The position numbers were made by a program, and so were the translations under genes. This document shows positions 31,454 through 34,576 of a stretch of DNA of 64,000 nt, piece after piece. Source of the stretch: Methanobrevibacter sp. (GTDB lineage: Archaea > Methanobacteriota > Methanobacteria > Methanobacteriales > Methanobacteriaceae); the NCBI GenBank assembly GCA_022775905.1, contig JALFJX010000009.1, positions 62,001 through 126,000 on the forward strand, given 5' to 3'. The notes below the pieces were generated by a model. The model saw only the letters and a program-made list of their open reading frames with translations, made no database searches and was not told the DNA's origin. Positions within the stretch are counted from its first letter, which is position 1. Each line of letters opens with the position of its first letter.

Positions 31454-31472
31454 TCTAACTACTTATTTTTTT
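31450..31472 (+). terminator. Short hairpin and T run at the aIF-1A stop
   Basis: A 5-bp stem (31450-31454 with 31458-31462, 3-nt loop) on the stop codon is followed by seven T at 31466-31472. It is a possible attenuating terminator between aIF-1A and RIO1. Confidence 0.45.
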
Positions 31473-31479
31473 GATTTTA

Positions 31480-32253
31480 ATGGATTCCAAAATAGTTAAA
31501 GCAGATGCAAAACACGAAAAAATACATTCCCGAAAAAGAAAGAAAGACAGTTCTGATAGAAAAGTGGGAAATGAAATTTTCGATAAAATAACCTTAGAAA
31601 CATTATACAAATTAGCTAATCAGGGACACATTGATATTTTAAATGGTGCTATAAGTACAGGTAAAGAAGCCAATGTACTTACAGGCATTACTGAAGACAA
31701 AAAATTTATTGCAGTTAAAGTTTATAGAATTGCAACATCTGATTTTAAAAAAATGGATTATTACCTCAAAGGAGATCCAAGATTCCATCTTAAAACCAAA
31801 AATAAAAGAAAAATCATTTATTCTTGGGTTACAAAAGAATTTAAAAACCTAACAAGACTTGAGTCTGCAGGAGTTAAAGTACCTCATCCAATTACAAGTG
31901 CAAATAATGTATTGTTAATTGAATTTATAGGTGATGAACAAGGGAATCCTGCCCAACCTGTTAAAAATCAACCACCAAAAGACCCTGAAGAATTTTTCAA
32001 TAAGTTAATCGAAAATCTAAAATTATTTGTAAATGAAGCAAAATTAGTGCATGGAGACTTGTCAAATTACAATATTTTAAATAAAGATGAAGAACCAGTC
32101 ATTATAGATGTTTCACAGTCCGTTGTTTTAGACAATCCCATTTCAAAAGAACTTCTTGAAAGGGACATTAACACACTTGTTCGTGAGTATACCAAATTTG
32201 GTGTTGAGACTAGTTTTGAAAAAATTTGGGAATATGTCAATCCTAAATTTTAA
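31480..32253 (+). CDS. RIO1-type serine/threonine protein kinase
   Basis: An atypical kinase of small-subunit rRNA maturation. The ATP-binding P-loop is GAISTGKEANVL, the invariant Lys is in FIAVKVYRI, the catalytic loop is VHGDLSNYNIL, and the metal-binding Asp is in PVIIDVSQSV. I start it at the ATG at 31480; an upstream TTG (31471) is less likely. It has a basic N-terminal extension (SRKRKKDSSDRK). In most archaea the KH-domain gene follows directly; here mtrH lies between them. Confidence 0.94.
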   Translation: MDSKIVKADAKHEKIHSRKRKKDSSDRKVGNEIFDKITLETLYKLANQGHIDILNGAISTGKEANVLTGITEDKKFIAVKVYRIATSDFKKMDYYLKGDPRFHLKTKNKRKIIYSWVTKEFKNLTRLESAGVKVPHPITSANNVLLIEFIGDEQGNPAQPVKNQPPKDPEEFFNKLIENLKLFVNEAKLVHGDLSNYNILNKDEEPVIIDVSQSVVLDNPISKELLERDINTLVREYTKFGVETSFEKIWEYVNPKF

Positions 32254-32742
32254 TTAAAATATTACTCACACACCGCAAATATTATTACTTTTTTAATTCT
32301 ACATAGTAACTTATTTTTTTCATTGAAACCATTTTAGAACATGAAATAAATTTTTTACATATAATTTAAAGTTATATCACTTAAAACTTATTAAAAATCA
32401 ATGATTTAATAATTAAAATTCAAATTAAGAATTAAATTATATAATAATGATTAATTATGATTAATTAATTATTTTAGATTTTTTCAATCAAAATAGCTAA
32501 AAAATAAGAATTAAACATTATTTTCAATTATAACTTATATTTGCCCCTTTTTTAGTTGTGTTAAACTGTCTAATATATTATTTATAAAATTAAACAGTAA
32601 TTTAAAAATATATACAATTTATTAAAAACTGTACAATAAGTATAAATAACATTACACCATAAATTCTAATTAGACTTAATTTTATTAACATGAATAAATT
32701 ATTTATTGAAAATTAAGTCGAAAAATATAGAGGTTATATTAA
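32254..32742. promoter_or_regulatory. Long AT-rich leader upstream of mtrH, with a TATA-like box and repeated half-sites
   Basis: No coding frame is convincing here. A TATA-like run tttaaaaatatatac lies at 32601-32615, about 130 nt before the mtrH ATG. Three TTAAACTGT-like motifs occur at 32561-32569, 32590-32598 and 32624-32632 (the third is AAAAACTGT), spaced by about three helical turns. These could be operator half-sites. The assignment is by eye only. Confidence 0.35.
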
Positions 32743-33681
32743 ATGTTTAAATTTGATAAAGAACAAGAAGTTTTTGACTTCGGTGGAGTCAAAATGGGTG
32801 GACAACCTGGAGAATACCCAACTGTATTAGCTGGTACTATTTTCTACGGTGGACACAACATTCTTAATGATGAATTAACCGGTGACTTCGATAAAGCTAA
32901 AGCTGAAACTTTAATCAACGATATGGCATCCATTTCTGATGTAACTGGAAACCCATACATTGTACAAGTTTTCGGACAAACTGTTGAAGCTCTCCCTAAA
33001 TATATTGAATTTGTTGGTGAAATTTGTGATGCTCCTTTCCTTATAGATTCTACATCTGGAGATGCTAGAGTTGCTGGTGCACAGTACGCTGATGAAACCG
33101 GATTAACCGAAAGAGCTATCTACAACTCAATCAACATGGCAGCAGACAAATCTGAATTACAAGCTCTCGCTGAAACTGACATTTCTGCATCCATTATCTT
33201 AGGATTCAACCCAATGAATGCTACCGTTGAAGGTAAAATGAACATGTGGGAAAACGGAGACAATGGTGCTTATGAAAAAGGTTTACTTGAAGTAGCTGCA
33301 GAATGTGGTATCGACAAATTTATGATGGATACTGCTGTAACTCCTTTAGGACAAGGTGCAGGTATTGCTGCTAGAACTTCCTTTGCAGAAAAAGCTAAAT
33401 GGGGATACCCAGTTGGATCCGGTATTCACAACGTACCTTCTGCATGGGACTGGTTAAGAGACTACAAAAAAGAAGGTAACAAAACTGCATTCACCGTTTG
33501 TGATATTGGTGCAAACATTGTTCAAGTTATGTGTGGAGGAGACTTCGTTCTCTTTGGACCTATTGAAAACGCAAAAATTGCATTCCCTGCAGTAGCACAA
33601 ACTGATATGTTCATTTCCGAAGCTGCAAAACCTTTAGGAACTGAACCTGTAGATTACCACCCAATGAACAAATTATTATAA
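32743..33681 (+). CDS. mtrH: Tetrahydromethanopterin S-methyltransferase subunit H (solitary copy)
   Basis: MtrH moves the methyl group of methyl-tetrahydromethanopterin to the Co(I) corrinoid of MtrA, in the sodium-pumping Mtr complex. It is full length (312 aa) with the family N-terminus FKFDKEQEVFDFGGVKMGG, TLVxx-type core, PFLIDSTSGDARVAGA and GFNPMNATVEG. The codons are those of a highly expressed gene (GGA/GGT, AAC, TTC). It stands alone, with no mtrE-G next to it, inside the archaeal series aIF1A-RIO1-KH-top6B-top6A. It could be the only copy, a duplicate, or serve another corrinoid protein. An agaggttat site is near the start. Confidence 0.92.
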   Translation: MFKFDKEQEVFDFGGVKMGGQPGEYPTVLAGTIFYGGHNILNDELTGDFDKAKAETLINDMASISDVTGNPYIVQVFGQTVEALPKYIEFVGEICDAPFLIDSTSGDARVAGAQYADETGLTERAIYNSINMAADKSELQALAETDISASIILGFNPMNATVEGKMNMWENGDNGAYEKGLLEVAAECGIDKFMMDTAVTPLGQGAGIAARTSFAEKAKWGYPVGSGIHNVPSAWDWLRDYKKEGNKTAFTVCDIGANIVQVMCGGDFVLFGPIENAKIAFPAVAQTDMFISEAAKPLGTEPVDYHPMNKLL

Positions 33682-33691
33682 GCAATTTGTT
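33667..33691 (+). terminator. Inverted repeat on the mtrH stop codon
   Basis: A perfect 8-bp inverted repeat (33667-33674 with 33684-33691, 9-nt loop) contains the TAA stop at 33679-33681 in its loop. No immediate T tract follows, so it may act in 3'-end formation or stability. Confidence 0.4.
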
Positions 33692-33799
33692 ATAGACTTA
33701 TCAAAAGTTACATTTTCAAACCTCAACATCAATTTGTTCTAAATGTCATTCCCTAAAATGATATTTAACAAATCTAAACATTAATCCAAAATACCGAAT

Positions 33800-33831
33800 T
33801 AGCACTGGACCTCCAAACACGTCCAGTGCTA
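33800..33831 (+). terminator. GC-rich perfect hairpin downstream of mtrH
   Basis: An 11-bp perfect stem (33800-33810 with 33821-33831, 10-nt loop) stands out in A/T-rich DNA: its first arm is tagcactggac. It lies 119 nt after the mtrH stop. The T run at 33846 is 14 nt away. It may terminate or protect the mtrH transcript, or belong to a small RNA. Confidence 0.5.
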
Positions 33832-33955
33832 TTAAAATAAAAACTATTTTTTATAAACTTATTTTTTAGTAAACAATATCTTTTTAATCCTAAATTTTAA
33901 ATAACTTCAGATAAATAATTATTAATAATTTTAATTTAAGAAAAAAGGTGAAATT

Positions 33956-34576
33956 ATGCCGGAAACAGATTATTTAAAAATACCTCAAAATAGAGTAGGG
34001 GCATTAATTGGAAGCAATGGAGGAGTTAAAAAGTCCATTGAAAAAGCAACTGGAACTATTCTCGACATAGATAGTGATGAAGGTACCGTTTACATCACAC
34101 CTAGCGACAATATGGAAGATCCATTAGGAGTTTGGAATGCAAACCATATCGTCAAAGCAGTTGCACGTGGATTCAATCCAGAAGTTGCATTGAAATTAGT
34201 TAGTGACGATTATTATTTAGAAGTAATTAGCTTACCATTATACATTGGAAAATCCAAAAAAGCCCTCGCAAGACATAAAGGAAGAATCATCGGAAAAGAC
34301 GGGAAAACACGTGAAATAATTATGGAAATGGCTGAAGTTGACATGGCAATTTACGGTAAAACAGTTTCATTGATAGGGGAAATGGACAACATAATGGTTG
34401 CTAAAGAAGCTATTGAAATGATTTTGAAAGGTTCCAGACATAAATCAGTTTACGGATTCTTAGAACATAAAAAAGAAGATTTAAAAATGAAAGAATTCAA
34501 AGACCTTGTTGGAATCGAAGATGACAAAATCGAATTCAAAGACGGAATTGAATTTGATGAAAACATGTTACAGTAA
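33956..34576 (+). CDS. KH-domain protein, archaeal Dim2/Pno1 homolog
   Basis: A 206-residue RNA-binding protein with two KH domains. Domain 1 has IPQNRVGALIGSNGGVKKSI with the GxxG loop (GSNG), and domain 2 has KGRIIGKDGKTREIIMEMAEV. Archaeal homologs help 16S rRNA 3'-end processing and bind aIF2-alpha. Its usual place is directly after RIO1; here mtrH has come between. An aaaaggtg motif precedes the ATG. A strong terminator sits on its stop codon. Confidence 0.92.
   Translation: MPETDYLKIPQNRVGALIGSNGGVKKSIEKATGTILDIDSDEGTVYITPSDNMEDPLGVWNANHIVKAVARGFNPEVALKLVSDDYYLEVISLPLYIGKSKKALARHKGRIIGKDGKTREIIMEMAEVDMAIYGKTVSLIGEMDNIMVAKEAIEMILKGSRHKSVYGFLEHKKEDLKMKEFKDLVGIEDDKIEFKDGIEFDENMLQ

Follow-up and report, generated by a model that had tools for sequence, protein, structure and literature searches.

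The solitary mtrH gene in this window appears to be a movable second copy, mtrH2, whose 3' untranslated region (3'UTR) would repress translation of the mtrH in the mtr operon, mtrH1, with the protein MtrH2 replacing MtrH1. The probability of this reading is put at about 0.62. Its firmest part is the pairing itself: that base pairing of the mtrH2 tail with the operon mtrH start is under selection is well supported by conservation, energy comparisons, and covariation between genomes. Mtr carries out the sodium-pumping step of hydrogenotrophic methanogenesis, and gut and rumen Methanobrevibacter, the source of the genomes analyzed, are a major source of livestock methane.

The locus and the gene

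The window (the whole 64,000-nucleotide stretch analyzed) belongs to a contig of G000, a Methanobrevibacter-type genome of 1.83 Mb that is 99.98% complete. The features of the locus are as follows.

31471-32253: RIO1, upstream flank of mtrH2
32641-32648, + strand: TATA box TATAAATA of the mtrH2 promoter (window sequence)
32673-32719, + strand: 5'UTR hairpin GACTTAATTTT ... AAAATTAAGTC (9-pair consensus stem, 27 genomes)
32729-32735, + strand: mtrH2 ribosome-binding site (RBS), AGAGGTT (GAGG invariant in 27 leaders)
32743-33681, + strand: mtrH2, the solitary mtrH and second MtrH of G000 (312 amino acids)
33719-33830, + strand: whole 3' antisense element with terminator hairpin (covariance model match)
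33721-33739, + strand: antisense segment 1, CCTCAACATCAATTTGTTC, predicted to pair with operon mtrH codons about 7-15
33732-33773, + strand: inner hairpin between the antisense segments, overlapping their edges (fold)
33767-33787, + strand: antisense segment 2, AACAAATCTAAACATTAATCC, predicted to pair with the operon mtrH RBS (GGATTA), ATG, and codons 2-4
33801-33810 / 33821-33830, + strand: terminator-like stem, GCACTGGAC / GTCCAGTGC (compensatory changes)
33956-34576: KH, downstream flank of mtrH2

The original prediction was of a full-length mtrH standing alone between RIO1 and KH, and the gene is indeed complete, with no mtrA-G genes adjoining it among the window open reading frames (ORFs). 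It had also been credited with a 489-bp A/T leader. The length is correct, as RIO1 ends at 32253, but most of this stretch is spacer; the positions of the TATA box and the 5' hairpin imply a 5'UTR of only about 72 nt. The two 3' inverted repeats that had been noticed correspond to the inner hairpin and the terminator-like stem. Does mtrH really interrupt a gene series, as was claimed? RIO1 and KH are directly adjacent in seven relatives (loci L214, L217, L218, L221, L223, L230, and L232), so it does.

MtrH2 was assigned to its family (TIGR01114/PF02007) over its full length by the curated equivalog cutoff of 271.4 bits; it matches the TIGR01114 mtrH equivalog at 490.9 bits across residues 1-311. 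It also aligns from end to end with PDB chain 9qtp, the MtrH of the solved Mtr complex. The residues of MtrH that bind the pterin and those that form the salt bridge to MtrB have been named (PMC12774963), and MtrH2 keeps all of them: D103, N129, D196, and N230 at the pterin site and D5 and R211 for MtrB docking (M. mazei numbering). The gene evolves under a dN/dS of about 0.03-0.08 between genomes, and none of the other 51 window ORFs comes as close to mcr/mtr genes in codon usage, which is what a strongly expressed gene would show. As judged from its sequence, then, MtrH2 is a complete MtrH isozyme with intact catalytic and docking residues. It likely has methyl-H4MPT:MtrA methyltransferase activity in the Mtr complex, since its orthologues (type B, described below) are the sole MtrH of the mtr operon in relatives such as G038.

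A second copy, and probably the native one

G000 has exactly two MtrH genes. The other, mtrH1, closes a complete mcr-mtrEDCBAFGH operon on the same contig, 46 kb away, so the solitary gene is a second copy and not a relocated sole one. The proposed self-contained cassette, "either a relocated sole mtrH or a second copy," thus survives in its second form. Nor is this simply the layout of the lineage, with no other mtrH in the genome and the same position in all relatives: a second mtrH exists, and the position of the solitary one varies between genomes.

Which of the two genes is the original? MtrH1 and MtrH2 are 68% identical, differing at 32% of residues, and when 127 Methanobacteriales MtrH proteins are placed in a tree they fall into two clades, with the operon copy of G000 in type A and the solitary copy in type B. 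Type B is, in many close relatives of G000, the operon copy. Between G038 and G000, for example, the other operon proteins are 75-97% identical and MtrH is 68% identical; the operon MtrH of G038 is 90% identical to the window gene mtrH2. Between G086 and G000, it is MtrH that is 90% identical and the other Mtr proteins that are at 58-81%. In the tree of the other operon genes, G000 falls beside two genomes of type B, G038 and G048, and an AU test rejects a single clade uniting the genus's operon mtrH copies (P = 1.2e-55). The simplest reading of these trees and identities is that the operon mtrH of G000 was replaced in place by type A while the native type was kept as a solitary gene; the operon mtrH looks like the newcomer. 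If so, it plainly illustrates how a gene can lose its place in an operon and still be retained elsewhere.

A mobile cassette with constant parts

The 30 solitary copies of the mtrH2 type are spread over 14 genomic contexts. Only G000 and G001 have mtrH2 between RIO1 and KH; in G004 and G021 it adjoins KH, and G004 carries the same cassette with its 3' element. Elsewhere, nothing lies in the RIO1-KH gap, or it is taken up by unrelated genes, among them those for an SBF transporter, an EamA transporter, and a TMEM175 channel; these differing contents (loci L067, L275, L278, L281, and L284, besides the window) mark it as a recurrent insertion site. What stays constant from context to context is the set of promoter, 5' hairpin, mtrH, and 3' element with terminator hairpin, which indicates that the solitary mtrH is a gene that travels as a unit.

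At the front of the cassette, a TATA-like box lies about -94 to -102 from the ATG in most solitary copies. The 5' hairpin, in which 6 of the 9 stem pairs have changes on both sides among the 27 genomes, is probably at the 5' end of the mRNA and could be a place where further control is exerted. At the other end, the terminator stem has changes on both sides in 8 of its 10 pairs. Behind the operon mtrH genes the terminator is plain, and the antisense element is missing.

An antisense element behind mtrH2

The element is on the coding strand, after the mtrH2 stop codon and before the terminator. When reverse-complemented, it resembles the RBS, ATG, and approximately the first 20 codons of an mtrH, split by an inserted hairpin. 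The start that it matches is that of the operon gene, GGATTA..ATG TTT AGA TTT GAT AAA GAA CAA, and not the start of mtrH2 itself (ATG TTT AAA). It covers 60-100 nt of the target. Its core is conserved across 27 genomes that have a synonymous-site divergence of 0.2-0.9. At the Rfam gathering score there was no match in the window, and 32200-34000 gave only chance-level hits.

How is the element distributed? Searched with a covariance model, 31 of the 67 genomes have it, each in a single copy directly 3' of mtrH2, and those of the 67 that lack mtrH2 have none; since 27 of the 31 elements were used to build the model, only four of these hits (G005, G019, G048, and G054) are independent. In the last of these, G054 (L272:4437-4958), mtrH2 has lost codons 1-177, but the element is intact and pairs with the operon start at -44.8, a case that counts against the main reading. 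Either the gene has decayed recently or the RNA has been retained while the protein was lost.

Predicted pairing with the operon mtrH start

In RNAduplex, the element pairs with the operon mtrH start at -41.2 kcal/mol, compared with -23.9 +/- 3.3 for dinucleotide shuffles and -27.4 for the start of mtrH2 itself. Once internal folding is accounted for, the net hybridization is -32.8, versus -11.9 +/- 3.4 for shuffles. The operon mtrH is the best target among 113 gene starts in 96 kb of the genome, and its start is the best non-self hit in a two-strand tile scan of 96 kb. Viewed from the target, none of the other 3' regions among the 94 compared pairs as well with the operon mtrH start as the element does. 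A pattern search found the 24-nt target start to be unique to the two mtrH genes.

The fit is also specific to each genome. For 17 genomes, the mean own-genome pairing is -40.0 and the mean cross-genome pairing is -33.0, with none of 20,000 permutations as good; for a one-type subset of 11 genomes, the figures are -40.2 and -35.6, with 8 of 20,000 permutations as good, and both permutation P values ignore relatedness between the genomes, which inflates them. Individual positions tell the same story. By eye, an operon codon 2 of TTA is met by TAA in the element in all four genomes that have it (G003, G004, G040, and G044), and TTT is met by AAA or G-U pairs in 11 of 12, the exception being a mismatch in G031. 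The element of G060 even fits the RBS-ATG spacer of its lineage (GTACTTATG versus CATAAGTAC). Where the operon mtrH is type B, in G005, G006, and G048, the antisense segment fits type B. In G019, too, the element fits the type-B operon. It does not fit the type-A operon on a contig of that genome, which was set aside as likely contamination, as it encodes the same protein as G020 and is not matched by the element. Overall, the features of a 3'UTR trans-antisense RNA that were looked for, conserved complementarity to a target in trans and covariation with it, are both present, though net hybridization is weak in G003 and G048, where it is not above that of shuffles.

How would the tail avoid its own gene? 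Of 35 solitary copies, 33 have AAA as their third codon, whereas the operon copies for which a partner element was detected carry AGA there; the tail is thus mismatched to the start of its own gene. In the two exceptions, G005 and G019, AGA is followed by TTC instead of TTT, and a mismatch with the tail persists. Autoregulation through the mtrH2 start was considered and rejected: its energies (-13 to -34) are mostly at shuffle level and are weaker than those for the operon target wherever both are known.

Proposed mechanism and its competitors

The mtrH2 transcript would do two jobs: it would encode MtrH2, and it would pair in trans with the operon mRNA through its 3'UTR, either intact or released as a separate RNA. 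This pairing would cover the RBS, start codon, and first codons of mtrH1 and block ribosome access to it and its translation, while MtrA-G would still be made. MtrH2 could then take the place of MtrH1 in the Mtr complex. As mtrH1 is the last gene of mtrEDCBAFGH, one subunit could be swapped in this way without lowering MtrA-G. Transcription of the tail, repression as its effect, and isoform exchange as the outcome are inferred from the comparisons above; on that footing, making MtrH2 probably switches off MtrH1. The original prediction had suggested that a second copy might allow control of methylation apart from the operon, and this is counted as right, as a prediction from sequence.

A more far-reaching version combines this mechanism with the origin of the genes, and its odds are about even. 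A foreign mtrH would have displaced the native operon gene, and the native gene, now a mobile cassette, would silence the operon copy through its 3'UTR. Self and target would be told apart by codon 3 (AAA or AGA), and the tail would be retargeted whenever the operon type changes. The result would be an RNA-controlled subunit exchange in a sodium-pumping methyltransferase.

Might a real and selected antisense tail have some other effect? It could bring about mutual silencing, the operon mRNA could destabilize the mtrH2 mRNA, or one of the two could be stabilized. Pairing is symmetric, and a target coverage of 60-100 nt means a long duplex that is open to double-strand cleavage in either RNA. 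However, the pairing is focused on mtrH1, at its RBS and start codon, and leaves the mtrH2 start untouched, as translational repression of mtrH1 predicts, and an effect of this other kind is considered unlikely.

The likeness of the element's reverse complement to mtrH codons 1-20 plus an inserted hairpin has a ready explanation: it probably arose by inverted duplication of the mtrH 5' end. It could be argued that the element is a functionless relic of that event, which we hold to be improbable. A relic would hardly be expected to keep its core over 27 genomes despite the synonymous divergence noted above, to pair better with the operon of its own genome than with those of others, to be retargeted to operon type A or B, and to occur once per genome in a fixed place.

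Two further explanations are given very little weight. One is that MtrH2 is merely a dosage or back-up isozyme and its 3' region merely a terminator, for which speak the very mtr-like codon usage and the compensatory changes in the terminator stem; this leaves unexplained the conserved 33719-33790 and its match to the operon start, and the terminator behind the operon mtrH genes is plain, lacking the element. The other, that MtrH2 serves the soluble corrinoid protein MtrA2, draws on the presence of a second, anchor-less MtrA in the genome, but MtrA2 and solitary mtrH each occur without the other, MtrH2 keeps the MtrB-docking residues, and its type-B orthologues are operon subunits in relatives.

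MtrA2 and the search for corrinoid partners

MtrA2 (L037:8069-8617, minus strand; G000:C9 at about 20.1 kb) is a soluble protein of 182 amino acids without a membrane anchor. It is almost identical to the soluble part of the operon MtrA, is near universal in the genus, and looks to be under ongoing gene conversion. It is the only other MtrA-type protein in G000. G008, G010, G063, and G064 have MtrA2 without a solitary mtrH, and G002 and G007 have a solitary mtrH without MtrA2; a partnership with MtrA2 was accordingly dropped as the main explanation, as the distributions do not match. A search for a second B12-binding partner turned up only one PF02310 protein, of 478 amino acids, and no MtaC-like set. 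The suggestion that the second MtrH could feed another corrinoid protein is therefore not supported, the distribution of MtrA2 not following that of solitary mtrH.

Comparison with known systems

The nearest precedent among methanogens is sRNA162 of Methanosarcina mazei, which masks the RBS of one cistron within a polycistronic mRNA and so uncouples operon expression (PMC3510493). The mtrH2 tail is predicted to act similarly, as a methanogen RNA masking an RBS inside an operon mRNA, but sRNA162 has an independent small RNA gene and targets that are not homologous to its own locus, whereas the tail sits on the mRNA of its target's paralogue. In enterobacteria, GlnZ is a small RNA from the glnA 3'UTR that represses the sucA mRNA and depends on Hfq and RNase E (PMC9731577). 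Here too, the 3'UTR of a metabolic enzyme is predicted to act on another metabolic mRNA by base pairing; GlnZ, however, is bacterial and sucA is unrelated to glnA, while the present case is archaeal and the target is a paralogue of the host gene.

An MtrH homologue outside the mtr operon is not in itself new. In some methanogens MtxH is encoded alongside mtxA and mtxX (PMC3087415, PMC4632066). Unlike MtxH, MtrH2 has no mtxA or mtxX beside it (its neighbors are RIO1 and KH, and no MtrA-like neighbor occurs in its 14 contexts elsewhere), and it is 68% identical to the operon MtrH. Closer to hand, an additional mtrH was reported for M. millerae SM9 (PMC4987999), likewise an extra copy in a Methanobrevibacter genome. 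That paper counts the extra gene only and does not describe an origin, a cassette, or an antisense element (PMC4987999); it was the only mention in the literature searched, which took in few subscription papers.

If the proposed mechanism is true, many Methanobrevibacter species tune the catalytic subunit of Mtr by an RNA switch, and control of a paralogue by a 3'UTR would be a rarity among archaea. The mechanism would also offer a testable reason for the retention, in so many species, of two MtrH proteins that are under strong purifying selection.

Other mtrH genes outside the usual arrangement

MtrH3 forms a separate solitary lineage of 313 amino acids, about 80% identical to MtrH2 (L068, L071, L074, L075, L177, and L179). 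As carriers of the element, the MtrH3 copies of G001, G062, G002, G007, and G090 fail; those of the group g6 genomes G075 and G078 reach a z of about -3, yet do not stand out in the tile scan. A solitary mtrH can thus exist without the element, as MtrH3 has no convincing one, and this counts against the main reading. In G001, both solitary mtrH copies are near an AAA_14/DUF4143 ATPase gene, and such a gene, or one with a SAP domain, is a further occupant of the RIO1-KH gap.

In group g9, mtrH genes occur in tandem at the end of the mtr operon, type A then B in L170 (G084) and L175 (G093) and B then B in L171 (G090). These tandems may be steps on the way to replacement of the operon mtrH. G070 of group g18 has a divergent MtrH-like gene that stands alone (L188:5380-6303); 41% identical and located outside the mtr operon, it does not belong to this family.
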